Shown here: positions 2 through 43,535 of the stretch, piece by piece
Layout: every line of letters starts with the position of its first letter
Numbering within the stretch: position 1 is the stretch's first letter
From: a virus
Reading direction: 5' to 3' (one strand)
IMG/VR virus record: IMGVR_UViG_3300025645_000140
Location: 1-43,703 of that record
Length of the DNA: 43,703 nt
The notes under the pieces: generated by a model
Seen by the model: only the letters and a program-made list of their open reading frames with translations
What the model was told of the DNA's origin: nothing
The model's database searches: none
Position numbers and translations under genes: made by a program

Positions 2-3000
2 GTGAAAGCTTTGATGCAGCGTATTCTTGGTGGTGTGCCGGCCGACATGTTCTCGAACATCCTGTTCAACACAGAGTTGATCATTACCGGTGGTGAGGGT
101 GATGTCAGCGTGACAGGCGGTGGTAATGGAACTGGTGGTGGCAATAATAACACAGGTGGCAATTTGACACCTCCTGCCCACAACCAGACAAACCACTGGA
201 TCGAACTGGCGAAGACTCGTCTGCAAGCGATCAATGATTCCACAGATGGAACCAAGGCAGCTCGCCTGGACCAGATGACCAAGTACCATGACAATGCTCA
301 AGGTGCGCTTGATACCCTGGCTCAGGGTGGGTTCTCGATGGATGCTTACCAGCGTGAGACATTCACTGCGATCCACTCAGTCCTGGCGACAGAGATGCGT
401 CTGGATACTCAGTCGTCGATCGCACTCAACGAGTTGTTTGAGCATGTGACTGACAACCTGACTCCAAACATGCTTGGACCAAACAACGCACAAGACCGAT
501 TCTCGGCAGTGATGAACCTCTTTGGAGATACCAAAAATGATGAAGGCGTCTCGGATGCTATTGCTGTGCTCTTGGCTCTGTCACAAACCAGTGATGGTTT
601 CCGTCGGGCTCTTGATCAGCTCCCAACTCCGCCAAGCAATGGTGGTATCGAAACCAACACACTGAATGATTTCCTCAGCACAATCACAGCAAGGTTGATG
701 ACCAAAGCTGTGGGGTCGATCGACACTTCGGCAGCCTCGGTTGGAGATACTCTGGATCAACTCTCAACCAGTATTATTCTGGAAGAGTCGGATCGTGAGT
801 TCCGGGTTATTGCTGGACTAATGAGCAACATCACCAAAGCTGATGAATTTATGAAAGGTGCCTTTGTAGGTCTGGCCAATTTCACTGAGGGTAAGAACAC
901 AGTGATCCAAGCGGGTAACCGGTCCTCGATCGTGAAAGCTGCTGCTGGTGCGGTGACAATTACCGCAGGTCTGCTGGATTCTGAGCGTGCAATGATCGCA
1001 GCTGAGGGTATCAAGAAACTGACTCACCAAACCACAGCATTCGATAACGCTGTGTTCATTCGTGAATTGGTTTCAGAGATGATCGGTACAGATGAGAACA
1101 GCAAAGACTTGGTTGCTCTCCTCGATGAGACGACGTTTGCCGTATCTGGTGCTCGTCAGAATTATCGTGAGGATTTGCCGGTTCTTCTTCAGGATGCGTT
1201 CCAGAATTCTCCTGATGAGAGCCAGTGGAAAGCAACACATCATGTGATGGCCAAGACAGACTTCGCTGCTGTCTATTCTGATGCCAATGCAAACAGCTCC
1301 TTCCGGTTGATTTCAGATGAGGCTTTCCTGGACAAGAAGATTGCCCAGTCAGAAAGTATCATACGCTCAAATTTCTCAGGAAATACTCGTGACCTGATTC
1401 TTGAGAAGGCACAGCAACTGGCTGACTACCAAAATGGTAAGGGCGCCGGGTTCCAACTCTGGACCAATGCTCTGGCGATCAACAGACTTGCTGGTGATTT
1501 CAAGCAACCGATGACTGCTGAGATCGATAAGCTGGCCAGCTACTATGCAATCAAAGGCTCCGATCCTCAGATGCGGATTCAGGTAGCTGAGATGTATCGT
1601 GATGATCCCGAGGCTATGAGAAACTTGGTTGTCTATGCTCAGTCTCTCAATGCTAGAGAAGAGCTCAAGCCTCGATCCTTCGCTGCTGAGATGGGTGGAT
1701 ACAAGGGCCACATCCCTGATCATGGTGTTCTTGGTTCAAAGACCATCATTGGAAAAGATGATGATCGTGTATCTCTGGAGCGCCAAGGGTACATTCGGGT
1801 TGGTGATGCTCCTGCTGATGACAACATGTCGATCATCAGCCGCGGGTATTACACAACGATGACCAAGCAAACCGGGACATACTCCCAGGGGATCATGCAG
1901 ATCGTACACGACACTTACCGCGGTGTTGATGCCACGACTGGTCTATCTCTGAATGGAACCACTTCAGGTATCATCGCTGATGCCTCCTCATTGAATTCAA
2001 TCAATGCTGAACTGAACCGAGCTCAGAGAGTGAACGATGTGAAAGAGGTTTTGATTCCTCGTTACGACGAAGATGACAACGGTGATTTGATCATCGTGGC
2101 CTATGAGCGTGCGATGAACCCAGACATCATTGCCAAGCACTCGGCTCCCAAGTCCAACATGGCTTTGATGTTGGGTGCATGGAGAGGTCGTCAGGCAGAG
2201 GAACAGAACGCACAGACATATAATGATCAGTTGGTTCAAGAACTGAAGAAGCTCTACGATACTCGTGAGCCTGGTTCGGATGATTCTTTTGTGAACCTGG
2301 TTGCCGAAGCAAAGAAACTGGAAGACTGGGATGCTGCTTCACCAGCTACACGTAAGCGTCTGAACATGAAGCAACCTGATCGGGCTCATGTTGAGAGCTG
2401 GAAGGTGATCTCTCCTGCAACCAAGGAGATGATTGCAGATGTATTCGGTGAAGGTAACTTCTGGGTCCGTAAGGATCAGGTGAACTTGAGCCTTGGATAC
2501 CGTGATCCATCCATCATCGACCTGTGGACTGGTGATACACGCATACCAAAAGCTGTCCAGGAAGGCGTACAGGCCATCGCAGGTCTCTTCATGGGTAAGC
2601 ACGCCATGAAAGCTCTTGCGGCTACTGAGGGCGGAGTACAAGGGCTGGTGTCCACAGCTAAAGACCTGATTGTGGTTCGTTCGTTGGTTGTTCCCTACAT
2701 GAACACACAAGCAAACGTATTCCAGCTCCAGACTCGTGGGATCCCAATCAAGCAGATGTGGAAGCAGTACCCCAACAAGCTTGCTGAGATCGAGCAGTAC
2801 AATGCGAACGTGAAAAAACTGATTGAGCTGGAGACACGGATTCAATTGGCCGGCACGGATAAGAACCGTGTTGCTGTTTTGCAACAGCAGGTTGATGTGA
2901 TCAAAGGACAGAACAAACGGTTCACGATCGCACCATTGATTGAAGCTGGAGCCTACAAGAATATCTCTGAAGGTCTCACGGATTTGGATGTGGACATCAC

Positions 3001-3514
3001 ATCGGGTCGTATTGGTCAGTGGGTTGAGGGTCAAACGAACAGGCTTCCAGGCGGTGTTCAGACGATCGCCAAGTATGGCTTGTTGTCGAAAGACACGGCT
3101 GTTTACAAAATGGCAAACAAAGCTGTTCAGTATGGAGATTTCATTGCCAAGGCTATCTACTACGAGCACTTGCTGGCTGAGAAGGGTCTCGACCACGACG
3201 CTGCAATGAAACTGGTGAACGAAGAATTTGTAAACTTCTCTGTTCTACCTGGGCGCACACGTTCTTATCTTGAGGGTATCGGAGCCACATGGTTCCTGAG
3301 CTTTAAGATCCGGATCATGAAGATTGCGATGAACCAGATTCGTGAGAATCCAGTTCGTTCGTTGATCACCGGTGGCTTTGTGGATGACTCTCCAATCGGA
3401 GATAACCTGGCCACAGTGATTGCTGAGGATCGTCTTGGATACTCATTGGGTTGGGAGATGTTGTTCGGATCAGCAGGGCTGAACCCTTGGTTGAACATCT
3501 CGGACTGGAGGTAA
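2..3514 (+). CDS. C-terminal part of N4-type virion RNA polymerase (partial, open at window edge)
   Basis: The frame is open from the first base, so only the last ~1,170 residues are present and the true start lies upstream. In N4-type phages the ~3,500-residue virion RNA polymerase is packaged, injected with the DNA and transcribes early genes. The call rests mainly on context: the gene faces, tail to tail, a minus-strand SSB / primase / DNA polymerase block, where N4 has gene 50. No T7-type catalytic motifs are visible, as expected for the domain after the polymerase core. Visible residues ~38-55 are a Gly/Asn-rich linker; the rest is long, charged and mostly helical, ending in a segment rich in basic and aromatic residues (~1085-1140). 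It could instead be another giant internal virion protein. Confidence 0.7.
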   Translation: MKALMQRILGGVPADMFSNILFNTELIITGGEGDVSVTGGGNGTGGGNNNTGGNLTPPAHNQTNHWIELAKTRLQAINDSTDGTKAARLDQMTKYHDNAQGALDTLAQGGFSMDAYQRETFTAIHSVLATEMRLDTQSSIALNELFEHVTDNLTPNMLGPNNAQDRFSAVMNLFGDTKNDEGVSDAIAVLLALSQTSDGFRRALDQLPTPPSNGGIETNTLNDFLSTITARLMTKAVGSIDTSAASVGDTLDQLSTSIILEESDREFRVIAGLMSNITKADEFMKGAFVGLANFTEGKNTVIQAGNRSSIVKAAAGAVTITAGLLDSERAMIAAEGIKKLTHQTTAFDNAVFIRELVSEMIGTDENSKDLVALLDETTFAVSGARQNYREDLPVLLQDAFQNSPDESQWKATHHVMAKTDFAAVYSDANANSSFRLISDEAFLDKKIAQSESIIRSNFSGNTRDLILEKAQQLADYQNGKGAGFQLWTNALAINRLAGDFKQPMTAEIDKLASYYAIKGSDPQMRIQVAEMYRDDPEAMRNLVVYAQSLNAREELKPRSFAAEMGGYKGHIPDHGVLGSKTIIGKDDDRVSLERQGYIRVGDAPADDNMSIISRGYYTTMTKQTGTYSQGIMQIVHDTYRGVDATTGLSLNGTTSGIIADASSLNSINAELNRAQRVNDVKEVLIPRYDEDDNGDLIIVAYERAMNPDIIAKHSAPKSNMALMLGAWRGRQAEEQNAQTYNDQLVQELKKLYDTREPGSDDSFVNLVAEAKKLEDWDAASPATRKRLNMKQPDRAHVESWKVISPATKEMIADVFGEGNFWVRKDQVNLSLGYRDPSIIDLWTGDTRIPKAVQEGVQAIAGLFMGKHAMKALAATEGGVQGLVSTAKDLIVVRSLVVPYMNTQANVFQLQTRGIPIKQMWKQYPNKLAEIEQYNANVKKLIELETRIQLAGTDKNRVAVLQQQVDVIKGQNKRFTIAPLIEAGAYKNISEGLTDLDVDITSGRIGQWVEGQTNRLPGGVQTIAKYGLLSKDTAVYKMANKAVQYGDFIAKAIYYEHLLAEKGLDHDAAMKLVNEEFVNFSVLPGRTRSYLEGIGATWFLSFKIRIMKIAMNQIRENPVRSLITGGFVDDSPIGDNLATVIAEDRLGYSLGWEMLFGSAGLNPWLNISDWR

Positions 3515-8821: not shown

Positions 8822-9820
8822 TTAGACGGGTAGACCGTCATCATTGAAATAATTCGTCCGCTGTTGGCAGACCGAGAAAGCAGGGCAATAAGGACATGCC
8901 TTTACGGCTCCAGGTACTCGAACAACGATCCCTTTGCCTTTCTCTTTCAGCCACAACTGAGCGTCAGCTTCTTTAGCGAAGTTTTTCTGGCAACGGCCGC
9001 CTTTCTTGGCGGTTTCCGGATTGGAATAGTATTTGAATTCGTCTTCCGATTGCCACAATTCCTTGGGAGTACACTCGACCATCTTGTCCTGGTCTAAACC
9101 AGCGTTGGCAATGATGTGATCAACCTTGTCGTTGATCCATGTCTCAGTGTCTTCCAAAGAGAGAAGTGCAAACTCCCGATGAGGAGTACGGATCTGTGGA
9201 TACTTGGGATCAACAGTCCGAAACTTCTGCCAGTCAGTGAAGATGAACTGGATTCGCATGATGTCATCTTTGATCAGATCAGGCATGATCCAGCGATACA
9301 TGGAACCTTGGAGGATGTAGTCGTCATCCTTGTTGCCGGAGGTCCAAGCGAATGTGCTTGTGGTTTTGAAATCCCGATAGGCTTGACCGATCAGGAAGTC
9401 CAACTGACCCGTGACAATAATATCACGGAACTCTTTGAAGCCACGAATCTCCAAGTAAATTGGGATGTCGTCATCCTTCAGAGTCTTTGGATCAGGGTTG
9501 ATTTTGATCTTGTTGATGATCTTCTCAGGGTAGTTCAGCTTACGCATTGCACCACGCCAATCACCCTGGGTCCATGCACGTTCGATTGAGTCATGAAGGC
9601 CATGGCCCACACGTGAAGCTATCATGTCCGATAGGTCAAACTCTTCTTGAGTCTGATCGACCTTACGCTTGAGGATCAATGACCGGGTAGGCTTCATGAG
9701 TGTGGTCACAGAGATCAACTCACCTGGAGGAGCCTCTGCGGCGCCGGAGTTGTATCCGTCTTGCAAGAGCCACACTGCCAGGGGCAGGTCGATCTTGTGG
9801 TTGTTGGTTATCTTAACCAT
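8822..9820 (-). CDS. PD-(D/E)XK exonuclease with Cys cluster (N4 gp42-like, Cas4/AddB style)
   Basis: 332 residues. RecB-family motifs in order: H73..H76, GQLD (D141), YRDFK (D150, K152) and QGSMY (Q171-Y175), the usual catalytic set for metal-dependent cleavage. Near the C-terminus C277 is followed by C309, C312 and C318, the one-plus-three spacing that holds a [4Fe-4S] cluster in Cas4 and AddB nucleases. It starts inside the end of the polymerase B reading frame (8-base overlap), so the two are probably co-translated. Expected role: exonuclease in phage replication or recombination, or host DNA degradation. Confidence 0.75.
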   Translation of the reverse strand: MVKITNNHKIDLPLAVWLLQDGYNSGAAEAPPGELISVTTLMKPTRSLILKRKVDQTQEEFDLSDMIASRVGHGLHDSIERAWTQGDWRGAMRKLNYPEKIINKIKINPDPKTLKDDDIPIYLEIRGFKEFRDIIVTGQLDFLIGQAYRDFKTTSTFAWTSGNKDDDYILQGSMYRWIMPDLIKDDIMRIQFIFTDWQKFRTVDPKYPQIRTPHREFALLSLEDTETWINDKVDHIIANAGLDQDKMVECTPKELWQSEDEFKYYSNPETAKKGGRCQKNFAKEADAQLWLKEKGKGIVVRVPGAVKACPYCPAFSVCQQRTNYFNDDGLPV

Positions 9821-10559
9821 TGATCTTCTCCAGATGTTTGGTGATGAGAGTTTTCACCTCACCGACTGTGGTTACGTTGGGGATGTCAAAATCTTTCCCC
9901 CAGTTGGGGTAGAATATTGAGAGCTCCCCGCTCATTTTGATGTGCTCATTCTGAATGGCTGGATCTTCCTGCCAACTCACAGCCTTTGAGAGGTGAGTGT
10001 TGGTATAGAGGAGGACTTCCATGTCATCCCGGATGAGCAAATAGTTTGCATCATGAATCTGAGCACAAGGTTTGATGTCCAAACGATGCTTACTCTTTCG
10101 GACACCCCTCATGAATTCACTCATGGCACGGGAGTTGAGCATGCAGTAGCTTTGCCCAAGGGCATTACCGGCTGTCCTGCCTTCGGCAGCAGCCTCGTAT
10201 GGTGTTCTACTGGTTCCCAGAACAACCTGCTTGAGCAGGGGAGTCCTGAGCCTCAGACCGAATGCCAGTGTGACGTAGCCGTCCTTACAGGCTTGTTCCA
10301 GTTTATCTGCGACCCACTTGTCTGACACGTGGTACAGATTGTGATAGCTGGCTTCGATTGAACGAGCCAACTCAGCAGTGAAGCCACAGTTTGTCATCAA
10401 GGTTATGTACGTCCCCTGATATGTCAGAGCAAAGGTTGGTGCCTTGGACTCTTGTCTATGGTGGGAGTATTTTTTCTTGATGGAATTCACCCTCGAAACG
10501 TTGTGCTCCGAGGGTGAAACTGTAAGCAATTCACTGAGAGGTTCAGTGATCTCAATCAT
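9813..10559 (-). CDS. DNA polymerase family A, C-terminal fragment (motifs B and C)
   Basis: 248 residues from ATG 10559, ten bases after the stop of the N-terminal fragment. Motif B is RQESKAPTFALTYQG (R35, K39, Y47), the fingers helix that binds dNTP; motif C is QIHDANY (H169, D170), carrying a catalytic Asp. The N-terminal fragment has the exonuclease and motif A, so the two must act together or be joined. Upstream of 10559 the same frame is open to 10730 but reads as a shadow of the first gene. No strong ribosome site precedes 10559, which favours coupling to the preceding stop or a +1 frameshift. The end overlaps the nuclease gene. Confidence 0.8.
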   Translation of the reverse strand: MIEITEPLSELLTVSPSEHNVSRVNSIKKKYSHHRQESKAPTFALTYQGTYITLMTNCGFTAELARSIEASYHNLYHVSDKWVADKLEQACKDGYVTLAFGLRLRTPLLKQVVLGTSRTPYEAAAEGRTAGNALGQSYCMLNSRAMSEFMRGVRKSKHRLDIKPCAQIHDANYLLIRDDMEVLLYTNTHLSKAVSWQEDPAIQNEHIKMSGELSIFYPNWGKDFDIPNVTTVGEVKTLITKHLEKING

Positions 10560-10569
10560 CGTTGGATTC

Positions 10570-12657
10570 TTACTTGTTGATGAGGGCAAACAACTCTGAA
10601 CCGAGAAGTTTTTGACCCATGTAGTCCACCTCCTCATTGCTGTGGAAGTAGAACTCCTTGTCTCCGACGGTGGCTTTGTAAGCCTGCTCCCCATCAGGAA
10701 GCAGAGCAACGTCAGGCATGTGCTCACCAAAGTAAGCTAACGCCCGAAGACAGTGGCCATCGTACCCGTCTGAATAGACCTTGATCTTCTCTGGATCTTT
10801 GGTCGTGACTGCGGAGATTTTGTCCTCCAAAGAATCGAAGTCCAAACCCACAAAAAGCCATCCGGGAGGTGCTTCAAAGCACTCCTTGATCAGCTTTGCA
10901 AGCCTTTGTTTTACTGGTGTTGAGCCAGCAGAAGGAATGTTCTGTAGGTTGGGGTTGTTCGATGACAACCTACCAGATGCTGTGCCACCGAGCCTGAAGT
11001 TTCCGAATAAATAATGCCATCCATCTGGTCCCTTCTTGGCTTTTAGGAAAGCCGGAAGGAATGTTGATAGGATGATTGCGGAAGCCTTGTACTCGATCAG
11101 GATGTTGAGGAACCGAATCACTTCAGGATCACTGGTGTGATTGATGAGTTTCTCCAGAGTATCTGCACCTGTGGCAGGCTGTTTGGTGTCGGTGTAATCC
11201 AGCACAGGCAAACCAAGGAAGTCTTCCTCGTACAAGAGACGTTGAAGCTGCTTGGGTGATCCTGGGTTGAACGCAACGATGGTATCTTTTGTGTTACCAA
11301 GATCAGCCTTCGTTATCTGTTTGCTTTTGAGCTTCAGGTTCTTCTCGATCACCTTCTCATCTTTGAGTTGGTCCATAAAAGACCAGATGATTTGGAGACT
11401 GTTCATCCGAGCCAGGTTGAGGTCTGACTCTTTCTGAAGCTGCTTGTCCAAGGCTTTGACCTTGTCCATGTTGATTGGCATACCAGTGAGCTGCATCTGG
11501 ATGATGTCGATGACAGCTGGTCGGAAGAGAGTCTGGTATGGTTCATCCTGAAGATCGGCAAGCATGATCGGCAAGTTCTTCTTGTAAACATACCAAGTGG
11601 CGAGTCCATCGATCAGATTATACTTCAGCAGATCATCCATAGGAATCAAAGTGATGTCATGGATATCGGACTGAGCATAGTTCCCTGCAAACTCTTGAGC
11701 CTGGGTCTTGAGTCCGAGCTCATTACCGGCACAGGAGTTGGTCGCCAAGTATGTGATGAGCTGGGTACACTCCCAGTTCCTCAAAAGAACTTCGAGTCCA
11801 GTTAGGAGACCCTCTTGATCTAAGATGTCCTCCATAAACAACTGGTAAACCAAGACATAAACATCATAGCAGATGTTGTGATAAATCATCTTGTGTTGAA
11901 AATTCTCAAAGAAGATTTTCAATGCACGACGAACGTCTGGATTATGTCTTCTGCCTGTTTGCTTGTTGTCGTCTGCCATGAATGTGTACAGACGATTTGA
12001 GTCTACGGGGAAAGCTACCCCTTCATGCTCATTCCAACAGAACGTGATGGTGCCTATGCCAGCATCATAGTGCTTGAGATCAAAGCCTTCGATGTCACAG
12101 GTGAGGTCACACTCCATGGCCTTGAGTCTGTCAATCCAGGTGAGGATCTCAGAGTAATCCTCTGGATAAGCAGAGAATTTGATGATGTTTTTACCCGTCA
12201 CAGAATGATCATTAGAAGCCCAGCGAGATGTCGCTTTGAGAGCCAATTCGATCTTGGCCTTCATCTTGTCTGGGTCATAGAACACACGGCCGTAGTTGGG
12301 GCAGTAGGTCACATGGAAGTCCGGATCAAACTCACTGCGACACACGTCACCGATGGTGGCATCTGTCTTGGCTTTCTTTGTCAGGACTTTGAAGTAATCA
12401 GGCTGAGTGACAACCAGCATTGTGATGCCGGCCGCCTTCAGGTTTTGAAGGAGCTCCGCAGTGTACTCTTTAATCTGAGTGACTGCGGTCTTCTTCTTAT
12501 GGGGATCGAGATAGAGATCAGCAATCATCACATCCTCACCCAACGTTCTCAGGTGCGGATTATAATAGTGCTTCATTACCTCCGCTGACTGGAGACGTGG
12601 AACGAGGAAGGCTATCCGGGGAGATTTCCCGGTGCCACCGATGACTTCATATTTCAT
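10570..12657 (-). CDS. DNA polymerase family A, N-terminal fragment (exonuclease domain and motif A)
   Basis: 695 residues, N4 gp39-like. Residues 1-150 are an N-terminal domain of unclear role. The 3'-5' exonuclease follows: Exo I DIE (188-190), Exo II HNICYD (D265), Exo III YNLID (D350). The polymerase domain has TASGRLSSNNPNLQNIP and motif A GLDFDSLEDKI (D606). The frame ends with TAA about 40 residues after the HMPDV segment, before motif B; the last ~45 residues have no clear counterpart in the T7-type core. Motifs B and C lie in another frame starting ten bases on. N4 DNA polymerase is a single chain of ~870 residues; the two parts here total 943. Confidence 0.85.
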   Translation of the reverse strand: MKYEVIGGTGKSPRIAFLVPRLQSAEVMKHYYNPHLRTLGEDVMIADLYLDPHKKKTAVTQIKEYTAELLQNLKAAGITMLVVTQPDYFKVLTKKAKTDATIGDVCRSEFDPDFHVTYCPNYGRVFYDPDKMKAKIELALKATSRWASNDHSVTGKNIIKFSAYPEDYSEILTWIDRLKAMECDLTCDIEGFDLKHYDAGIGTITFCWNEHEGVAFPVDSNRLYTFMADDNKQTGRRHNPDVRRALKIFFENFQHKMIYHNICYDVYVLVYQLFMEDILDQEGLLTGLEVLLRNWECTQLITYLATNSCAGNELGLKTQAQEFAGNYAQSDIHDITLIPMDDLLKYNLIDGLATWYVYKKNLPIMLADLQDEPYQTLFRPAVIDIIQMQLTGMPINMDKVKALDKQLQKESDLNLARMNSLQIIWSFMDQLKDEKVIEKNLKLKSKQITKADLGNTKDTIVAFNPGSPKQLQRLLYEEDFLGLPVLDYTDTKQPATGADTLEKLINHTSDPEVIRFLNILIEYKASAIILSTFLPAFLKAKKGPDGWHYLFGNFRLGGTASGRLSSNNPNLQNIPSAGSTPVKQRLAKLIKECFEAPPGWLFVGLDFDSLEDKISAVTTKDPEKIKVYSDGYDGHCLRALAYFGEHMPDVALLPDGEQAYKATVGDKEFYFHSNEEVDYMGQKLLGSELFALINK

Positions 12658-31122: not shown

Positions 31123-31287
31123 TCAGACGATATCGCACTGAGTGAACTCATATCCGCTGGAGTCAATTTCGACTCCACCGGTTTCCTCCATCTCTTTTTC
31201 AGCCTTATCTATGGCTTCTTGTGCTGTCTTCGCCTGGACCGTTACCTGATAGGTAACGATTGTCTCAAACTGGACTTTATACTTCAC
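31123..31287 (-). CDS. Small hypothetical protein, 54 aa
   Basis: GTG start at 31287 inside the end of the thyX gene (11-base overlap). It begins MKYKVQFETIVTYQVTVQA and continues KTAQEAIDKAEKEMEE, a strand-then-helix pattern common in small phage proteins of the beta-alpha type. No ATG is available; the GTG start and coupling make it credible. Last gene before the terminator. Confidence 0.6.
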   Translation of the reverse strand: MKYKVQFETIVTYQVTVQAKTAQEAIDKAEKEMEETGGVEIDSSGYEFTQCDIV

Positions 31288-32740
31288 CGGTTAGGGCCTC
31301 CTCAAGGTCACGTCGTGTGTAGAGAGACCTTACCTGTGCAGCTTCACCTTTGGAAAGACCTTCCAGGTCAGAATGAATGATTGCAGAGATTTGGTCCTGT
31401 GTCAGTGACACACTCTCACGAGTACGCATGTAGGCCGCGTAAACCAATGGAAAGAAGTGCTCCACAGCTTCAGCGATCAGCTTGGCGTAGACCCGAATCT
31501 CCCATTGAGCGTGATCATCGTCCCGTAGGTACAGGAATTTGATCAGGTTCGAGACATCCAGTTTCCAAACAACCTCAGTATAGGTGTTCAGAGGAAGCAC
31601 GATTCGAGCTGTCTCACGAGAGACACCTAACCCGAGAAGATCGTCATACGCTTCAAACGCCATTTCTCCAGCTGCATGTATGACAGATCGTGCGATCTCA
31701 GCATCTACAACCTCAAGAGGTTCAGCAGAACCTTGCTTGTTCACCTTGTCCTGTTTGCAGATTTGCTCAGGCTCAGGGACGTAGAAGAGCTTCACCATCT
31801 CCGAATAGCGACCTGAGTATTCATTCAGGTTTGCAGTCCGGTGACGAACCATCTGACGCATGCAAAAGATTGGCATACGCATGTGGAACTTGATTTCACC
31901 CATCTCAAGGGGAGATGTGTGGTGATTCCGAACCAGGTAATTGATGAGACCTTCGTCGTTGTTCACCTTCTTGGTTCCCCGGCCGTAGGACATACGAGCC
32001 GATTCAGCGATACTGGTGTCCGAGCCCATGACTTCTTTGACTTCAAAGAAACCGTGGTCGAGGACTTGGATCGCATTTTCAGGTTTGTCTGTCCATTCAA
32101 GACGATTTTCCAACTGAGGTTGGGTATCGACTTCGATAGTGTCCGGATCTGGATCAGGATCTGGAAAGATCTCAGCGAAAGATGCTGGACCTTTGGGGTT
32201 ATACTTTACGTAATTTACGTCAAACCCCTCTTCATCGAGCTTCTTCTGAAGATTGGTAATGGCAACCTCAAGGTTTGCTTCCGGCCCATTGTTGTCAATG
32301 TACAGGTTGGCTTGTTTGGCTGTGAGCTCATTGGAGGCTTTTGCTTCAGGCTCCAGACGAGCTGAAGCATCAACCCATATCACATGGTCAAAGAGCCCTT
32401 TCTCTATACAAGCTTCCCATTCAGCGATGCGACGCATGCCGATGTACATGTCATTGCCTTCTTCAAGCATCTCAGTGGCTGTCCGAGATTTGTCAGGCGT
32501 GTTGTATGCGGAGATGAGATTTCCCCACACAACTCGATTTTCGGGAGTGATACGAGCTTCAAACATCTTCTCGAAGGAAGCGTAGCGTTCACGTCCCCAT
32601 GTTGGCCAGATTGCTCGGCGGCCGACAAAGTCAGATGAAGATGAGAACGTGAGTCCCATCTTATCTGAGATCATCTGGGCAACGGTGTCTTTACCGTGGC
32701 GCCCATGACCGATGATCAAGAGTCTTGGTTTCCTAGACAT
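31277..32740 (-). CDS. thyX: Fusion of dNMP-kinase-like domain and flavin-dependent thymidylate synthase
   Basis: 487 residues from ATG 32740 after AAAGGAG. Residues 1-185 are a P-loop kinase: GHGRHGKDT (11-19) and IWVDAS (121-126), similar in layout to phage deoxynucleoside-monophosphate kinases. A Pro-Asp repeat linker (193-200) leads to ThyX: RHRTANLNEYSGRYS (299-313) is the family signature that binds FAD and dUMP, followed by the LPLNTYTEV and helical C-terminal parts. ThyX methylates dUMP to dTMP using FADH2 and folate; a kinase domain could pass dTMP on to dTDP. Standalone ThyX is ~230-270 residues, so the N-terminal domain is an addition. Next to dCTP deaminase, which feeds the dUMP route. 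Confidence 0.85.
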   Translation of the reverse strand: MSRKPRLLIIGHGRHGKDTVAQMISDKMGLTFSSSSDFVGRRAIWPTWGRERYASFEKMFEARITPENRVVWGNLISAYNTPDKSRTATEMLEEGNDMYIGMRRIAEWEACIEKGLFDHVIWVDASARLEPEAKASNELTAKQANLYIDNNGPEANLEVAITNLQKKLDEEGFDVNYVKYNPKGPASFAEIFPDPDPDPDTIEVDTQPQLENRLEWTDKPENAIQVLDHGFFEVKEVMGSDTSIAESARMSYGRGTKKVNNDEGLINYLVRNHHTSPLEMGEIKFHMRMPIFCMRQMVRHRTANLNEYSGRYSEMVKLFYVPEPEQICKQDKVNKQGSAEPLEVVDAEIARSVIHAAGEMAFEAYDDLLGLGVSRETARIVLPLNTYTEVVWKLDVSNLIKFLYLRDDDHAQWEIRVYAKLIAEAVEHFFPLVYAAYMRTRESVSLTQDQISAIIHSDLEGLSKGEAAQVRSLYTRRDLEEALTGEV

Positions 32741-36068: not shown

Positions 36069-37253
36069 CTAGGCTAGGAGGTACTCGCCGTCAAGAATCA
36101 CATCACGGTCAATCTTCCCAACTTTGTTGGTCTTGATGTCCTGATGAGCCACTTGCTTGGCGATGTCTTGAAGCATGATCGAGTCATTGATGTCAGCAAG
36201 AATGGTGTTGTACTGACGACGTAGGTCGTTGCCGTAATTTGGGTGACAACGGAAGCAGTCATGGACTGTGACTACGTTAAACGGTTTCTTTGGAAGCGTA
36301 TTGATCATCTCGAAGATTGTGTCTTCGTGGACGATCCCAGCATTGTCCGGGGTCAGATGCTCCAGAATTCTGACTGATAGAAAGCCAGTTTCATCATAGT
36401 TAGACCACAGTGCCTCTACCATTTTGTCATCTGGTGTGACGACATTGCTGTTGACCGGCCCACTAAAGATGTGAGCCAGGAACTCAAGTGTAGCTGGATT
36501 GAACATGCACCGACGTAACATCTCCCGGACAACCATCCCATCAATTGAATGGATGATGTTTGGACCGAGACCCTTGTGGAAGTCAGGACGTGCGTCGACA
36601 TTGACAGAGAGTTTGTAATCCTCCTCAAGGAACTTGAAGGGCTTATTCTCTTTGTCTTTGGTTTCGATGCACGCATGGAAGTTGTCAGGCATAATCCATT
36701 CATACGTTGAGCCTGAGACCTCATCCCACAATTGTTGTAAGCCAAGGTTAAGATCCCAGGCGCCAGGTGCCATTGCTTCAATGGTTTCGTAGAACAGATC
36801 GATGTGCTCTCCGAATGTGGACTCAGGTGTAGCCACAGACCCATACAAGCTGGTCATGATAGCAGCCTTCACCTGTTTACGTGTGAGTACCCCATGGAGA
36901 TTCATGGCGCCGTAGATGGCGGTGTATGAGTCCACACACTGATCCGATCGTCCTCCACATAGGTCGAAGGACTTTGGACAGCTCACAAGCAGTGATAGAA
37001 TCTGAAGGCCCGATGAACAGGCATCCAGTGAGATCATATAGCCTGAAGCTAGACCAAGTTCAGTCTGGTTGTGAGCAAGGATGGCTGCACGTAGACCGAT
37101 TGGATCAGAAGCTATCTTGAAGATCCGAGGATCATGCAAGTTGATCGTGTTGAAATGAGCTAGGCGCTCATCCCATGTCTTCTTCTCGAAAGACTTGTCA
37201 TGTTTGCAGGCAATTTCTGCTTGCAGATACTGGAAACCTGTAAGGCTTTTCAT
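36069..37253 (-). CDS. RNA polymerase II large subunit, T7-like, catalytic (N4 gp16-like RNAP2)
   Basis: 394 residues, close to N4 gp16 (~404). It holds the catalytic core of a T7-type RNA polymerase: motif A SLDACSSGLQ (D77), motif B LTRKQVKAAIMTSLYG (R125, K129, Y137) and motif C VTVHDCF (H331, D332). The N-terminal part of a T7-type chain is missing; RNAP1 (39193-39993) supplies it. In N4 the two-subunit enzyme transcribes middle genes, here leftward from about 36 kb. All catalytic residues are present. It is the last gene before the terminator at 36021-36066. Confidence 0.9.
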   Translation of the reverse strand: MKSLTGFQYLQAEIACKHDKSFEKKTWDERLAHFNTINLHDPRIFKIASDPIGLRAAILAHNQTELGLASGYMISLDACSSGLQILSLLVSCPKSFDLCGGRSDQCVDSYTAIYGAMNLHGVLTRKQVKAAIMTSLYGSVATPESTFGEHIDLFYETIEAMAPGAWDLNLGLQQLWDEVSGSTYEWIMPDNFHACIETKDKENKPFKFLEEDYKLSVNVDARPDFHKGLGPNIIHSIDGMVVREMLRRCMFNPATLEFLAHIFSGPVNSNVVTPDDKMVEALWSNYDETGFLSVRILEHLTPDNAGIVHEDTIFEMINTLPKKPFNVVTVHDCFRCHPNYGNDLRRQYNTILADINDSIMLQDIAKQVAHQDIKTNKVGKIDRDVILDGEYLLA

Positions 37254-38957: not shown

Positions 38958-39196
38958 TGTTCGTCGATCTCGAAGTCTGTATCTAAGAGGATACGGATCT
39001 TGACACGCTCAAGGAGCCCGACCATGACCATGTTGTCCTCCACTCCAAAGCAGGTGTAGAGGCTGTTGTTCTCAGAGCCTTCAGCAACAATGGCTACATT
39101 TCGGAGAGCTCCGCTCCTTGCATCTTCAAGAGCAAGTTCGAGTGCCTCGACCACTTCGGGTACAGGCTGGCTTTTGATGTTTACGATATCGATCAA
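38954..39196 (-). CDS. Small hypothetical protein, 80 aa
   Basis: Directly downstream of RNAP1 with a four-base overlap. Residues VVEALELALEDARSGALRNVAIV (quoted in parts: EALELALEDARSG, NVAIVAEG) followed by YTCFGVEDNMVMVGLLERVK fit a small family of phage proteins with an EALE...ARSG helix and a beta strand, function unknown. Confidence 0.6.
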   Translation of the reverse strand: MIDIVNIKSQPVPEVVEALELALEDARSGALRNVAIVAEGSENNSLYTCFGVEDNMVMVGLLERVKIRILLDTDFEIDEQ

Positions 39197-39993
39197 TTTA
39201 TCACCTCTTTATTTGCGAGTTGAAGCACAGCCTTGTTGTAGTCTGTACCCTGCGGATTTACGTGGTAGCCGGAGGAGTAGCATCTCCCGCGGCGATCGTA
39301 TTTGTGTGTCATGTACAGCTCATCAGATAAACCAATGAGAGTTTCCATGACATCAAGCGTCGACGAGTAGAACGTGTCAGCTTGTTTCTGACGCTTACGG
39401 AACTCGACGAAGTCTTCGCCATTGTTCCGTGTCGGCCGCAGATATTTTCCCTCTGGAGATGTGATCACATCAATGTCGAGGGAGAGAGCGACCGAGTTTG
39501 CCCGGTTCAAGTGATCCAGGCAGATGTCTTTGTCTTCGAAATACTCAGAGCCATTCAGAACAGCTGAACCAAGAATGGTTTCATACCCAGTATGGTAGTT
39601 CTTTGTGACTTTGCGAGGTGCAGTGACCATCGGCAGTGGATACTGGTACTTTTCCAGCATGTTCTGCACATCTTCAGAGACATCATATTTTACGATGAAT
39701 TTTCCTGAAGTCTCCTGGAAGTCGAAGTAATCTATCTGGCACAGATGAAGCAGTTTATCTGCAACCTCTTGAGGAGTGCCAAATTTAGGGCTGAGGATAC
39801 CAACCATGGTTGGAACATCCGCTTGCCTGTGAAGGAACAACTGAGCCAAGGCTTCAGTTGCCATTGCTGGTTCACAGCCTTCACCACAGTCATCTCCCAT
39901 TTGCTGAAACTCAGCACGTAGGACAGGTAGCAACTGATGTTTAGAGAACAGTTCTTCGAGTCCTTGCTGGGTGTCTTTGGTCGGGAGTTTCAT
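39193..39993 (-). CDS. RNA polymerase II small subunit, T7-like N-terminal part (N4 gp15-like RNAP1)
   Basis: 266 residues, like N4 gp15 (~269). The end, KYDRRGRCYSSGYHVNPQG (231-249), is the T7-type DxRGR segment that precedes motif A; the rest corresponds to the N-terminal and thumb-side part of the single-chain enzyme. It must join RNAP2 (motifs A, B, C) to make an active polymerase for middle genes. In N4 the two genes are adjacent; here they are 1.9 kb apart. Start ATG 39993, overlapping the upstream stop. Confidence 0.85.
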   Translation of the reverse strand: MKLPTKDTQQGLEELFSKHQLLPVLRAEFQQMGDDCGEGCEPAMATEALAQLFLHRQADVPTMVGILSPKFGTPQEVADKLLHLCQIDYFDFQETSGKFIVKYDVSEDVQNMLEKYQYPLPMVTAPRKVTKNYHTGYETILGSAVLNGSEYFEDKDICLDHLNRANSVALSLDIDVITSPEGKYLRPTRNNGEDFVEFRKRQKQADTFYSSTLDVMETLIGLSDELYMTHKYDRRGRCYSSGYHVNPQGTDYNKAVLQLANKEVIN

Positions 39994-40337: not shown

Positions 40338-40587
40338 TGTGATCTCCTTCACAGTGAGGGTGATTGAGGTTGAGCACAAACATCTCTGCCTCGTTGTCGC
40401 TGACGATGATTTTGGTGAACACTTCGGCAATGGTCAGAGGACCATTTATCCCGATGTATTTGATGGGAGACCATCGATCGAGTCGGTAATCGTACCAGTC
40501 AACCATGTGCTCATGTTCCATGAAATCGACCAGAGCTTTATACTCTGGATCAGTTTCGTAGAGTATTTTGTGGTCATATTTTGACAC
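40330..40587 (-). CDS. Hypothetical protein, 85 aa
   Basis: GTG start at 40587 seven bases after GGAG; an ATG at 40626 gives a longer, less plausible N-terminus. Charged and aromatic (MEHEHMVDWYDYRLDRWSP), then GPLTIAEVFTKIIVSD. First sizeable gene after the early promoter at 40692-40710 and leading into RNAP1, so it belongs to the early transcript. Confidence 0.65.
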   Translation of the reverse strand: MSKYDHKILYETDPEYKALVDFMEHEHMVDWYDYRLDRWSPIKYIGINGPLTIAEVFTKIIVSDNEAEMFVLNLNHPHCEGDHNG

Positions 40588-40691: not shown

Positions 40692-40710
40692 CCAGGGCAG
40701 CCGCAGGCTG
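40692..40710 (-). promoter_or_regulatory. Early promoter hairpin for virion RNA polymerase (site 4)
   Basis: On the plus (template) strand: CC (40692-40693), AGGG, stem CAGCC (40698-40702), loop GCA, stem GGCTG (40706-40710). The spacing CC-4-stem5-loop3-stem5 equals the N4 virion polymerase promoter. Predicted start of the minus-strand transcript is at 40693, beginning GG. It would drive the genes from 40587 through RNAP1. Confidence 0.7.
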
Positions 40711-40727
40711 AATACGGTTGCAAGGGT

Positions 40728-40783
40728 CAACTTTGATCTATCAGAGCAGATCAAAAGTTGAACTTGATCTATCTTGATCTATC
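40728..40783. repeat. Cluster of ttgatctatc repeats with inverted repeat
   Basis: ttgatctatc occurs at 40733-40742, 40764-40773 and 40774-40783, the last two in tandem. In addition CAACTTTGATCT (40728-40739) faces AGATCAAAAGTTG (about 40748-40760) as an inverted repeat with one extra A. It lies between a terminator and an early promoter, so it may be a protein-binding or regulatory site. Confidence 0.6.
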
Positions 40784-40784
40784 A

Positions 40785-40824
40785 AAAATAAAAAGCCCAA
40801 CGTCCCCGGTTAGGGGACGTTGGG
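40785..40824 (-). terminator. Rho-independent terminator
   Basis: CCCAACGTCCCC (40796-40807) pairs perfectly with GGGGACGTTGGG (40813-40824); on the minus strand CTTTTTATTTTTG follows. It ends the transcript of the 128-aa gene at 40836. Confidence 0.92.
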
Positions 40825-40835
40825 TCTTCTCAACC

Positions 40836-41222
40836 TTAGCCAAATAGCGACTTGGCCAGATCAACATCAACAGTTGGGTTAGGAGCAACAGTTGCTTCTT
40901 CCTGGCGACGGTAGAGACGCAACTCCAGGTTGATCGGAAGCGACTCACCTTCGGCAAGTCCAGCAGCCTTCGCCTGGATCTGAGCGATCACCTGGTTGAT
41001 GATCGCCGTCTCGGCTGCCCAGTTTGCATCCATGGAGTCGTAGACCTTCTTTGGCTTCAGGTCAGCGACCGCGATGCCACGTGGAAGACGGACGAACTTG
41101 TCCTCAGCGTCTTTGCCTTCGCCTGCAACGCAGATACCAGCGTTGATGTACAGGCCGTCGAACTCGGAAGCTTCACGAGTGGTACGAGCAGCGGCGCGGG
41201 AGATAGATGTTACAACAGTCAT
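40836..41222 (-). CDS. Early hypothetical protein, 128 aa
   Basis: Start ATG 41222 with AAAGGATC upstream; it has its own early promoter (41266-41284) and terminator (40785-40824), so it is a monocistronic early gene, which usually means high expression. Residues SEFDGLYINAGICVAGEGKD, FVRLPRGIAV and INLELRLYRRQEEAT suggest a small beta-rich domain; the C-terminus is Asp-Leu-rich, ending AKSLFG. The pattern is that of a conserved phage protein of unknown function; a host-takeover or DNA-binding role is possible. Confidence 0.7.
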   Translation of the reverse strand: MTVVTSISRAAARTTREASEFDGLYINAGICVAGEGKDAEDKFVRLPRGIAVADLKPKKVYDSMDANWAAETAIINQVIAQIQAKAAGLAEGESLPINLELRLYRRQEEATVAPNPTVDVDLAKSLFG

Positions 41223-41265
41223 AATATGTGATCCTTTCGAAGATTCACGGTTCAGCCGGAAATGG

Positions 41266-41284
41266 CCAAAGCAGTCGCAGACTG
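41266..41284 (-). promoter_or_regulatory. Early promoter hairpin for virion RNA polymerase (site 3)
   Basis: Plus strand: CC (41266-41267), AAAG, stem CAGTC (41272-41276), loop GCA, stem GACTG (41280-41284), with one more pair possible outside. Predicted start at 41267, 45 bases upstream of the ATG at 41222. Confidence 0.75.
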
Positions 41285-41339
41285 CTACTTTTGGAGCAAC
41301 CTCGCCCCAAAAGAGGGACAAGGCAGAAGAGCGTGTAAC

Positions 41340-41561
41340 CTATGTGTTAGGTTGTTGGGTCATGACTTTGACTTCATGAAGCGGAATGCAGTTCGCTATG
41401 GAACGAGCCCAAGGAGTTGTGGGATCCTTGATCATTTGGATGCCAACTTTGCGAACTTCTGCAATGCAAATTTCTTTTGTCTCCCAGTCACCGAGGTGAG
41501 CTGAGGTTAGTTGGTGGCCCTGTGGGGACATCAACGTGATGATCATCAGGAACGTTTCCAT
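41340..41561 (-). CDS. Early hypothetical protein, 73 aa
   Basis: Begins METFLMIITLMSPQGHQLTS, with a hydrophobic start followed by GDWETKEICIAEVRKVGIQM and PWARSIANCIPL. It resembles small phage proteins with an N-terminal hydrophobic segment and two Cys, possibly membrane-attached or secreted. Start ATG 41561 after AAAGG. It follows the terminator at 41582-41614. Confidence 0.6.
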   Translation of the reverse strand: METFLMIITLMSPQGHQLTSAHLGDWETKEICIAEVRKVGIQMIKDPTTPWARSIANCIPLHEVKVMTQQPNT

Positions 41562-41581
41562 TGTCTTGGCCTTTCATTTGA

Positions 41582-41614
41582 GAAAACGAAAACTCCCCCT
41601 GAATGGGGGAGTTT
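41582..41614 (-). terminator. Rho-independent terminator
   Basis: AAACTCCCCC (41590-41599) pairs with GGGGGAGTTT (41605-41614) around TGAAT; a T-rich TTTTCGTTTTC follows on the minus strand. It lies nine bases after the stop of the secreted acidic protein gene. Confidence 0.85.
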
Positions 41615-41622
41615 CCTAGTTT

Positions 41623-42096
41623 TTATGGTGAACGGTTGCCGTGAGTACCTTTGTCGTTGTTCTTCGAGGTATCACGATCCTTGCCACCTTTGCCGTTGTT
41701 GTTGTCGGCACGTTCGTTGGCATGGTTCGAGGCGTTTGACTTGGATCTTTTCTCCTTGTCGTCGTCGCCATCGGTGGAGTCATCATCATCATGATCATCA
41801 TGACCGCCGCATTTACGGCGGCAGCCGTTGTCATGGTCATCATCATCCTCATCATCTGTGGTTGTGGTCACAGTTGTTGAGTTTGTGTCACGATCTCGGT
41901 CCCTTGGACTATCGACTGGGATAGAAGGACACCAGTTCCAGCGAAGTCCCAAGAACCCATAAACTGGACACGCAGGAGCTGTGATTTCTGGTTCATCCCA
42001 TTCGGACACAGGTGTGCCGGCATGGACGGCCGAGGAGGCCACGAATGAGATGGCGAATACCATCGTGAAGAGGATCATTGTAAAGAAGTGTTTCAT
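41623..42096 (-). CDS. Secreted low-complexity Asp/His/Asn-rich protein, 157 aa
   Basis: Residues 1-26 are a signal peptide (basic start, hydrophobic core FTMILFTMVFAISFVASSA, cleavage after VHA). The mature part has a short folded segment with two Cys and several Trp (~27-62), then an extended run of Asp, His, Thr and Asn (DDEDDDDHDNG, HDDHDDDDSTDGDDD) and a Lys/Asn/Gly-rich basic end. Such composition suggests a disordered, metal- or cation-binding periplasmic or extracellular protein. An exported protein in the early region is unusual. Function unknown. Confidence 0.7.
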   Translation of the reverse strand: MKHFFTMILFTMVFAISFVASSAVHAGTPVSEWDEPEITAPACPVYGFLGLRWNWCPSIPVDSPRDRDRDTNSTTVTTTTDDEDDDDHDNGCRRKCGGHDDHDDDDSTDGDDDKEKRSKSNASNHANERADNNNGKGGKDRDTSKNNDKGTHGNRSP

Positions 42097-42125
42097 TGGA
42101 TTTTACCTTGTTTCAGTTGATAGTG

Positions 42126-42144
42126 GGGAAAGTTGTACCTCTGA
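42126..42144 (-). promoter_or_regulatory. Shared upstream motif (gtacctctga), copy 1
   Basis: GGGAAAGTTGTACCTCTGA on the plus strand, 30 bases upstream of the secreted-protein ATG (42096). The same motif, one or two bases different, occurs at 43598-43614. No hairpin of the early-promoter type is present here, so this could be a promoter or operator of another class. Confidence 0.35.
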
Positions 42145-42163
42145 TCTATAGAATATCAAAGGC

Positions 42164-42197
42164 AAAAAGAAGTTAAGCCCTTTTGGGGGCTTAACTT
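42164..42197 (-). terminator. Rho-independent terminator
   Basis: AAGTTAAGCCC (42170-42180) pairs with GGGCTTAACTT (42187-42197) around a six-base loop, followed on the minus strand by CTTTTTGCC. It comes eight bases after the 63-aa gene. Confidence 0.88.
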
Positions 42198-42204
42198 ATT
42201 GGAC

Positions 42205-42396
42205 TCAGTTGTTCATCTTCAGGCAGAAGAAGTAGCCTGGACGATCGACAGAGTCTTCGAGACGTTGGAGATAATCAGCGACTGCATGACAGTCGCTTTG
42301 CTCATAGAACGTCTCATCGTCGTAGATTTCGGACATCTCAAGTTCGCCATCGGTGATACCTGTGGCGTACATGAGGAAGAATACAGTTTTCAGCAT
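42205..42396 (-). CDS. Early small protein with hydrophobic N-terminus, 63 aa
   Basis: Residues 1-12 are hydrophobic (MLKTVFFLMYAT), perhaps a short signal or anchor; the rest is acidic with two Cys (EQSDCHAVADYLQRLEDS, FFCLKMNN). ATGA overlap with the 32-aa gene. Function unknown. Confidence 0.6.
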   Translation of the reverse strand: MLKTVFFLMYATGITDGELEMSEIYDDETFYEQSDCHAVADYLQRLEDSVDRPGYFFCLKMNN

Positions 42397-42494
42397 CAGA
42401 GTGCTCCTGTGATGAGTTTATGAAGAACGATCGAGACGCCAACCACTACGGCAGAACCGTAGTAGAAGGCGAAGAATGTGATGAGGCTTTTCAT
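42396..42494 (-). CDS. Early tiny membrane protein, 32 aa
   Basis: ATG 42494 overlaps the previous stop (ATGA) and its stop overlaps the next start, forming a three-gene chain. Nearly all hydrophobic (ITFFAFYYGSAVVVGVSIVL), a single-pass membrane peptide. Expressed early, it could act on the host membrane; unproven. Confidence 0.6.
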   Translation of the reverse strand: MKSLITFFAFYYGSAVVVGVSIVLHKLITGAL

Positions 42495-42736
42495 CGGTTC
42501 CGCAACTCACGGATGTAAGCTGCCACCTGGAATCGAGCATCAGCCATATCTTGTTGGTTGATTGCGATCTCTTCCTCGTTGCCACCACGATAGTTGAGCA
42601 CCATCTGAAGCTCTTGGTCGTACTCATGGCAATAACCAATATACTCGTAGCCTTCGTCGATCTGGTTCTCGATCCAGCTATTGCTGCGCTGGTTCATCGG
42701 GAGATCTTGTTGCTTCGGTAATGTGTAAACGGACAT
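42491..42736 (-). CDS. Early hypothetical protein, 81 aa
   Basis: Start ATG 42736 after GGAGGATATACT. Gln/Asn/Tyr-rich (WIENQIDEGYEYIGYCHEYD), then an amphipathic helix (INQQDMADARFQVAAYIREL). First gene after the early promoter at 42774-42792, with the leader only ~39 bases long. Confidence 0.65.
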   Translation of the reverse strand: MSVYTLPKQQDLPMNQRSNSWIENQIDEGYEYIGYCHEYDQELQMVLNYRGGNEEEIAINQQDMADARFQVAAYIRELRNR

Positions 42737-42773
42737 AGTATATCCTCCAATATTGGGAGTTGAGGCATGATTG

Positions 42774-42792
42774 CCAGAGCAGACGCAGTCTG
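42774..42792 (-). promoter_or_regulatory. Early promoter hairpin for virion RNA polymerase (site 2)
   Basis: Plus strand: CC (42774-42775), AGAG, stem CAGAC (42780-42784), loop GCA, stem GTCTG (42788-42792), one extra G-C pair outside. Predicted start 42775. Its left flank, ggcatgattgccagag, almost equals that of site 1. Confidence 0.78.
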
Positions 42793-42794
42793 CC

Positions 42795-42959
42795 TTAACT
42801 TGGGGCTACGAACTTCAAGTCTTTGAAGAACTTGAGAGCCTTCTCAGGAACATCACCATACAGGTGGTATTCCAGGAGTTGATTTCTGAAGGCGAGTTCT
42901 TTTCGAGCCTTTAGTTTCTTCATCTGGTTTTTATCCAGAGAACTTCTTTCAGTAGACAT
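42795..42959 (-). CDS. Early small basic helical protein, 54 aa
   Basis: Start ATG 42959 with GAGAGGA upstream. Lys/Arg-rich helices (LDKNQMKKLKARKELAF) and an aromatic C-terminus. Possibly nucleic-acid-binding. Its stop lies two bases from the site 2 promoter hairpin. Confidence 0.6.
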   Translation of the reverse strand: MSTERSSLDKNQMKKLKARKELAFRNQLLEYHLYGDVPEKALKFFKDLKFVAPS

Positions 42960-42977
42960 TTAACTTGTCCTCTCAAC

Positions 42978-43115
42978 TTAGGGTTGAAGCTGCTCAACTT
43001 GTTGAGCCAGCTGGTTGGCTGTTGTGAAGGCTAGAGCAGAGATCATCTGCATACCCAGCCAGCCTGTGAAGACCACCAGGACGGTGAGTTGGGTGTAAGC
43101 TGCCACGTTGTACAT
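42978..43115 (-). CDS. Early small membrane protein, 45 aa
   Basis: ATG 43115 after AAAGG. Residues ~8-30 are hydrophobic (QLTVLVVFTGWLGMQMISAL), followed by a Gln-rich hydrophilic tail (NQLAQQVEQLQP). Single-pass membrane peptide expressed early; role unknown. Confidence 0.6.
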   Translation of the reverse strand: MYNVAAYTQLTVLVVFTGWLGMQMISALAFTTANQLAQQVEQLQP

Positions 43116-43225
43116 GGGAGAACCTTTCTGCCTCTCAGGGAGGCTAATTGGAGCCGATATCTCTATCAGTCTCTATCTATCATAGACTGTGGTGCTGCCC
43201 CTCCGCGAGGGAGGGACAGACGTTG

Positions 43226-43480
43226 TTAAGCGTACTTAGCGGCAAGCGCGTCGAACTGAGCCTTGAGCTTCGCGTCTGCTTCAAGGGTGTTGGCGATGAG
43301 CTGGTTGTGCTGCGCTTCTGCCAGTTGTGCATCATTGCTGATGGTGCCAGTCAACCTGATGTGGTTCTTGGCTACATATACATTGCATATGTCGATGGAT
43401 TTATTAAGTGACTCGGCAGTGTTGGAGACTGCGTCGAGTGGAGTACAGATAGCACGGGAGAGTGAGCTGAAGATGGACAT
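43226..43480 (-). CDS. Early hypothetical protein, 84 aa
   Basis: Start ATG 43480 after TTTAGGAGG; the longer open frame upstream crosses the promoter hairpin and is not coding. Mostly helical: an N-terminal amphipathic part (SIFSSLSRAICTPLDAVSN) and a C-terminal Ala/Leu/Gln helix (AQLAEAQHNQLIANTLEADA). First gene of the early region within the window. Confidence 0.65.
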   Translation of the reverse strand: MSIFSSLSRAICTPLDAVSNTAESLNKSIDICNVYVAKNHIRLTGTISNDAQLAEAQHNQLIANTLEADAKLKAQFDALAAKYA

Positions 43481-43516
43481 GGGTATGCCTCCTAAATAGA
43501 TGTGATGGCTTGAATG

Positions 43517-43535
43517 CCAGAGAGCCCGCAGGGCT
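43517..43535 (-). promoter_or_regulatory. Early promoter hairpin for virion RNA polymerase (site 1)
   Basis: Plus strand: CC (43517-43518), AGAG, stem AGCCC (43523-43527), loop GCA, stem GGGCT (43531-43535). Predicted start 43518. The leader is ~38 bases to the ATG at 43480, almost the same as at site 2. Confidence 0.75.

Follow-up and report, generated by a model that had tools for sequence, protein, structure and literature searches.

Predicted hairpin promoters with a GCA loop in an uncultivated N4-like phage suggest a shifted recognition code of the virion RNA polymerase

The virion RNA polymerase of phage N4 (gp50) is the textbook example of a polymerase that reads DNA hairpins, and the rules attached to its promoters, a purine at position -11 and a G at position -8, derive from this one phage. 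Promoters of the N4 type are early start sites that depend on gyrase and SSB and are independent of the host polymerase. Extrusion of the hairpin requires a C:G closing pair together with the G and A of the loop, while the N4 polymerase reads A or G at -11, G at -10, G at -8 and C at +1 (PMC4496689). The polymerase residues that make these contacts are K114 for -10, R119 and W129 for -11, and R904 for -8 (PMC4496689).

The window analysed here is the whole of a 43,703-nucleotide IMG/VR record (IMGVR_UViG_3300025645_000140), a 43.7-kb fragment of an N4-like phage (Schitoviridae) that encodes the C-terminal part of the virion RNA polymerase (vRNAP), RNAP1, RNAP2 and a homologue of gp2, the RNAPII cofactor of N4. 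Both strands were scanned for a motif in which CC and four purines lead into a perfectly paired, C:G-closed stem of 5 bp or more with a GNA loop. The full motif occurred at 40692, 41266, 42774 and 43517 (Table 1) against an expectation of 0.005 from 200 Markov dinucleotide copies (maximum 1), and no further copy was present on either strand of the window. All four hairpins lie on one strand within the final 3 kb and point at leftward genes. The same scan, applied to N4 as a control, recovered P1, P2 and P3 exactly at 102, 571 and 4560, and single-stranded DNA folding energies were -4.1 to -6.2 kcal/mol for the window hairpins versus -3.7 to -5.3 kcal/mol for P1-P3. A sequence-only reading had listed these four sites, and on re-reading its positions, CC, ARRG spacers, perfect stems and GCA loops proved exact, as did its remark that the stems differ in sequence yet pair perfectly (CAGCC, CAGTC, CAGAC and AGCCC, the second and third extending to 7 and 6 bp). 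It had also named many equal hairpins inside coding regions as a finding that would speak against it; the two-strand scan returned these four sites only. Perfect 5-bp hairpins with 3-nt loops, counted over the whole window on both strands, numbered 168 versus 95 in the Markov copies, perhaps a reflection of codon usage.

Table 1. Predicted promoters, genes and terminators of the window
Feature	Position	Strand	Details
Hairpin promoter 1 (predicted)	43517..43535	+	CC-AGAG-AGCCC-GCA-GGGCT; template = + strand; predicted start 43518, leftward
Hairpin promoter 2 (predicted)	42774..42793	+	CC-AGAG-CAGAC-GCA-GTCTG; 6-bp stem 42779-42793; motif core 42774-42792; predicted start 42775
Hairpin promoter 3 (predicted)	41266..41286	+	CC-AAAG-CAGTC-GCA-GACTG; 7-bp stem 41270-41286; motif core 41266-41284; predicted start 41267
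Hairpin promoter 4 (predicted)	40692..40710	+	CC-AGGG-CAGCC-GCA-GGCTG; predicted start 40693
Virion RNA polymerase, C-terminal third	2..3514	+	PHROG 2206 positions 2213-3404
RNAP2 (N4 gp16-like RNA polymerase subunit)	36069..37253	-	PHROG 2051
RNAP1 (N4 gp15-like RNA polymerase subunit)	39193..39993	-	PHROG 2166
N4 gp2 homologue, 128 aa	40836..41222	-	PHROG 4099; 45% to DSS3phi2 'N4 gp2-like'; 29% (E 8e-9) to N4 gp2
Early gene, 81 aa	42491..42736	-	ORF list, leader analysis
First early gene, 84 aa	43226..43480	-	PHROG 14155 (unknown function)
Intrinsic terminator closing gp2 unit, just before promoter 4	40796..40824	-	Terminator scan
Intrinsic terminator closing promoter 2 unit	42170..42197	-	Terminator scan

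As in N4 P1-P3, each site comprises a template-strand hairpin with a stem of 5-7 bp and a C:G-closed 3-nt loop holding G and A, together with a CC start and a four-base spacer. The length of the spacer between the +1 C and the stem is fixed, and its pattern is CC-ARRG in 4/4 window hairpins, so that all window spacers are purine while that of N4 P1 is made up of A and one T. C-GCA-G, and with it the C:G closing pair and the 5'-G and 3'-A of the loop, is likewise present in 4/4. The window retains all the bases needed for extrusion and start, whereas two recognition bases, -11 and -8, are altered. At the centre of the loop, -11 is C in all four hairpins in place of the N4 purine, and -8, in the stem, reads C, T, A and C across the four where N4 has G in 3/3; within the window -8 has thus drifted and -11 has not. 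The N4 loops are GAA in P1 and GGA in P2 and P3, so that the GGA which the sequence-only reading gave for N4 describes two of its three promoters; the same reading was right about the C at -11 and overlooked the change at -8. The window also carries four such promoters, in contrast to the three of N4.

The placement of the hairpins also resembles that in N4, as the 41266 hairpin precedes the gp2 homologue in the position of P2 and the 40692 hairpin precedes the RNAP1/RNAP2 block in the position of P3. Transcripts started at the C adjoining the spacer would begin GG(C). The predicted leaders of promoters 1, 2 and 3 run for 38 nt to AGGAGG and an ATG at 43480, for 39 nt to GGAGG and an ATG at 42736, and for 45 nt to AAAGGA and the ATG of the gp2 homologue at 41222, respectively. 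In a correction to the sequence-only reading, a clear ATG was not found close to the 40692 hairpin, the first plausible start downstream of it being a candidate GTG at 40587, at a distance of 106 nt. The early region also contains a 157-aa ORF at 41623-42096 (-), which is flanked by two terminators and has no dedicated hairpin promoter. Elsewhere in the window, the coding sequence of a family A DNA polymerase is divided between two frames that overlap, at 9813-10730 and 10570-12657 (-), matching Pfam DNA_pol_A positions 28-201 and 200-336, through a frameshift, a sequencing error or a programmed slip. A ThyX thymidylate synthase at 31277-32740 (-), with Pfam Thy1 at residues 237-431, has an extra N-terminal part of ~230 residues that by eye has the look of a P-loop nucleotide kinase and gave no Pfam match.

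Relatives were gathered from IMG/VR and GTDB contigs with RNAP2 and RNAP1 as queries and combined with 15 named isolates, all of which were scanned for hairpins with perfect stems. No near DNA match to the window was present among phage records. Under the CC rule, 67 hairpins were counted in 43 genomes, namely 38 GGA, 13 GCA, 11 GAA and 5 GTA. Besides the four in the window, GCA sites were found in the uncultivated genomes IMGVR 3300035034_000437 (G002; three, one of them without the second C), 3300049783_001054 (G018; two) and 3300006805_000056 (G023; two), whose proteins are 60-75% identical to those of the window, and singly in G031-G034. Across differing stems, -11 was C in 4/4 hairpins of the window, 3/3 of G002, 2/2 of G018 and 2/2 of G023. 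The notion that GCA is unique to the window phage was rejected, as seven more uncultivated genomes carry it. Four genomes carry GTA; among the named isolates with strict hairpins, loops were GAA or GGA only. The GCA loop, described as new by the sequence-only reading, is new relative to the N4-promoter literature examined, from which it is absent, and is shared by those seven other genomes.

GTA adds a fourth loop letter, seen in the N4-like contigs L130 (4571-5724 of contig CAKZOO010000061.1), L184, L183 and L187; its sites number three on that contig and two in G036, with others in G035 and G037. L128 and L130 are distinct N4-like contigs, with GGA and GTA loops respectively, in a single Flavobacteriaceae MAG (ERR2094171_bin.138), probably through binning contamination.

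A single base per genome was the rule at both recognition positions: in 18 of the 19 genomes with at least two hairpins -11 was uniform, the exception being N4 (A and G), and in 18 of 19 -8 was uniform, the exception being the window. Shuffling, a permutation that leaves shared ancestry in, leads one to expect about 8 uniform genomes for each position (P 5e-5). Stem position -6 displayed no per-genome uniformity of this kind among the multi-hairpin genomes. Strict GNA hairpins were not found upstream of RNAP2 in L042, L045, L049, L050, L053, L125 and L126, which include RPP1, DFL12phi1, V13 and phiCB2047-B, and the early promoters of such hairpin-less N4-like genomes may have imperfect stems or belong to another type. 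For RPP1/RLP1, which are related to the roseophages, a lack of any promoter consensus was reported (PMC4193335).

An alignment of 42 polymerase cores was used to compare promoter bases with polymerase residues, the tree being made without the contact elements and the residue-base association being assessed over 39 polymerases. On this tree the minimum number of changes was five for GCA, four for GTA and 11 for the loop base overall. A basic residue (R, H or K) at N4 position 119 was present in 22/22 genomes with G at -11 versus 4/17 of the others (P 3e-7), a value to be read with the loose alignment of the -11 element in distant genomes and with the choice of residues and groupings, made partly after viewing the alignment. 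Similarly, R or K at N4 position 904 was present in 22/26 genomes with G at -8 versus 2/13 others (P 5e-5). With the strictest collapsing of relatives the two associations gave P values of 0.004 and 0.016, respectively, and among 946 columns 119 ranked third for G at -11 and 904 thirty-first for G at -8. Tree-independent pairs pointed the same way, by about 3:0 and 4:0, but such small numbers give no significance by themselves. G015 and G012, whose cores are 76% identical, offer the best natural contrast, the former combining GGA with His119 and the latter GAA with Phe119. A phmmer comparison with the N4 crystal-structure sequences reproduced the alignment placements in G032 and G018. Loss of W129 was considered as a cause of a pyrimidine at -11 and set aside as weak (P 0.03), the tree-independent pairs disagreeing. 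In G032-G034, the three GCA genomes nearest N4, W129 is nevertheless lost and the -11 element is lengthened by an insert of ~20 residues.

In the window phage itself, the contig end cuts off the promoter-reading core of the vRNAP. The C-terminal part that remains is closest to G003, G006 and G008 (59-61%) and to the GCA genome G018 (58%), which group together, with support, in the tree of polymerase cores. A search for the polymerase core of the same phage gave best relatives at ~60-75% identity, so this clade served as a stand-in. In its cores 904 is Q or E, 129 is F, Y or I, and 119 is R as in N4. Q/E at 904 in these relatives thus matches the loss of the -8 contact, and there is no such change at 119 itself for the C at -11; because R119 is kept in these nearest polymerases, reading of -11 may be relaxed rather than switched. 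The support reaches the recoded promoters and leaves aside the orthogonal polymerase-promoter pair that the sequence-only reading proposed, given that the contig does not include the window core and that Arg119 persists in the closest polymerases.

That retained arginine also fits a different account, in which the hairpins are vRNAP promoters of a lineage whose polymerase ignores both -11 and -8, GCA being one equally stable G-N-A loop kept by descent; there would therefore be no new specificity and no orthogonality. As mentioned above, the bases that extrusion demands are limited to the C:G pair and, in the loop, G and A (PMC4496689), and -8 varies freely in the window. Nevertheless, C is held at -11 in every hairpin of the four multi-hairpin GCA genomes while unread stem positions drift, and across the family the loop base, uniform in 18/19 genomes, tracks residue 119. 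We consider this account a real contender and, on balance, somewhat unlikely.

Far less probable are the readings in which the hairpins have nothing to do with a virion polymerase. As short palindromes between genes they could be taken for protein-binding operators (inverted repeats), RNA elements or terminators of early operons, but their stems are all different and hence provide no common operator sequence, they have no T tract while separate true terminators were found between the units, and their one-sided CC and four-purine spacer matches N4 P1-P3 as returned by our scan; an Rfam search gave no match. Just as improbable is transcription of the early genes from sigma-70-type promoters of the host, with the hairpins incidental. 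Unusual host promoter types could escape our scan, yet sigma-70-like sites numbered 2 versus 3.4 in shuffles, a virion polymerase is present and four such hairpins are beyond chance. Chance itself can be given next to no weight: coding DNA does contain isolated GNA hairpins that have a purine spacer (a GCA example lies at 16844 in Pollock) and the window is rich in 5-bp hairpins, but the full motif recurs at corresponding places in relatives and exceeds its expectation by far, with no copy elsewhere in the window.

We therefore favour, with a probability of about 0.9, the reading that the hairpins are early promoters of an N4-like phage, probably read with a shifted recognition code. Anatomy, rarity, location, recurrence, the uniform loop base per genome and the co-variation with polymerase residues were computed directly. 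The four hairpins are almost certainly start signals for the particle-carried RNA polymerase of N4-type phages, an assignment already made by the sequence-only reading and now backed by how the sites are built and placed, by their rarity and by their recurrence in related genomes, and they very likely operate by the N4 mechanism. In outline, the template strand of the injected supercoiled DNA would extrude a 5-7 bp hairpin whose G-C-A loop is closed by C:G. Bound to this hairpin, the virion RNA polymerase injected along with the DNA would start a transcript with GG, four bases beyond the stem, and the gp2 homologue and the RNAP1/RNAP2 block would thereby be expressed early. The code of this lineage's polymerase would have shifted, C replacing the purine at -11 and the base at -8 not being fixed. 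Extrusion, activity in the cell and active reading of the C at -11 are what we infer from these comparisons.

On this evidence, all of it comparative, a recoded vRNAP promoter set in the window lineage is well supported; the window promoters are a genuine variant within a promoter class already known, and they belong to a broader recoding in Schitoviridae. Tentatively, and at slightly less than even odds, one may go further and regard the vRNAPs and hairpins of this family as a code of two letters, at -8 and -11, that evolves in nature, with all four bases in use at -11, one per genome, repeatedly re-assigned, matched by residues 119 and 904 and forming mutually orthogonal pairs, within which the window would have gone over to C at -11 and given up the -8 contact. 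Such a family-wide pattern was not found in the literature examined, mostly freely readable main texts. This clear promoter set departs from both N4 rules, the purine at -11 and the G at -8; the rules vary by lineage, and the matching changes fall at polymerase residues known to touch these positions. The outcome is a testable recognition code, a means of locating early promoters in N4-like genomes for which none were reported, and candidate orthogonal tools for transcribing single-stranded DNA.

Beyond N4, reports on LUZ7/LIT1/PEV2 and the Pectobacterium CB1 group give stems of 4-5 nt and 3-nt loops modelled on N4, with a central purine described or expected, and so set these phages apart from the window (PMC3715699, PMC6027278). 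The named relatives nearest to the window by polymerase are the roseophages DSS3phi2, EE36phi1, V12, R7L, SupP_AX and DS-1410Ws-06 (Rhodovirinae), which share its architecture and spacer (CCAAGA and similar) and differ in having a GGA loop with C at -8, and a polymerase with H at 119 and V, N or A at 904. The uncultivated G018, G002 and G023 have GCA loops like the window but, unlike it, keep a uniform -8 in each genome, being C, A and G, respectively.
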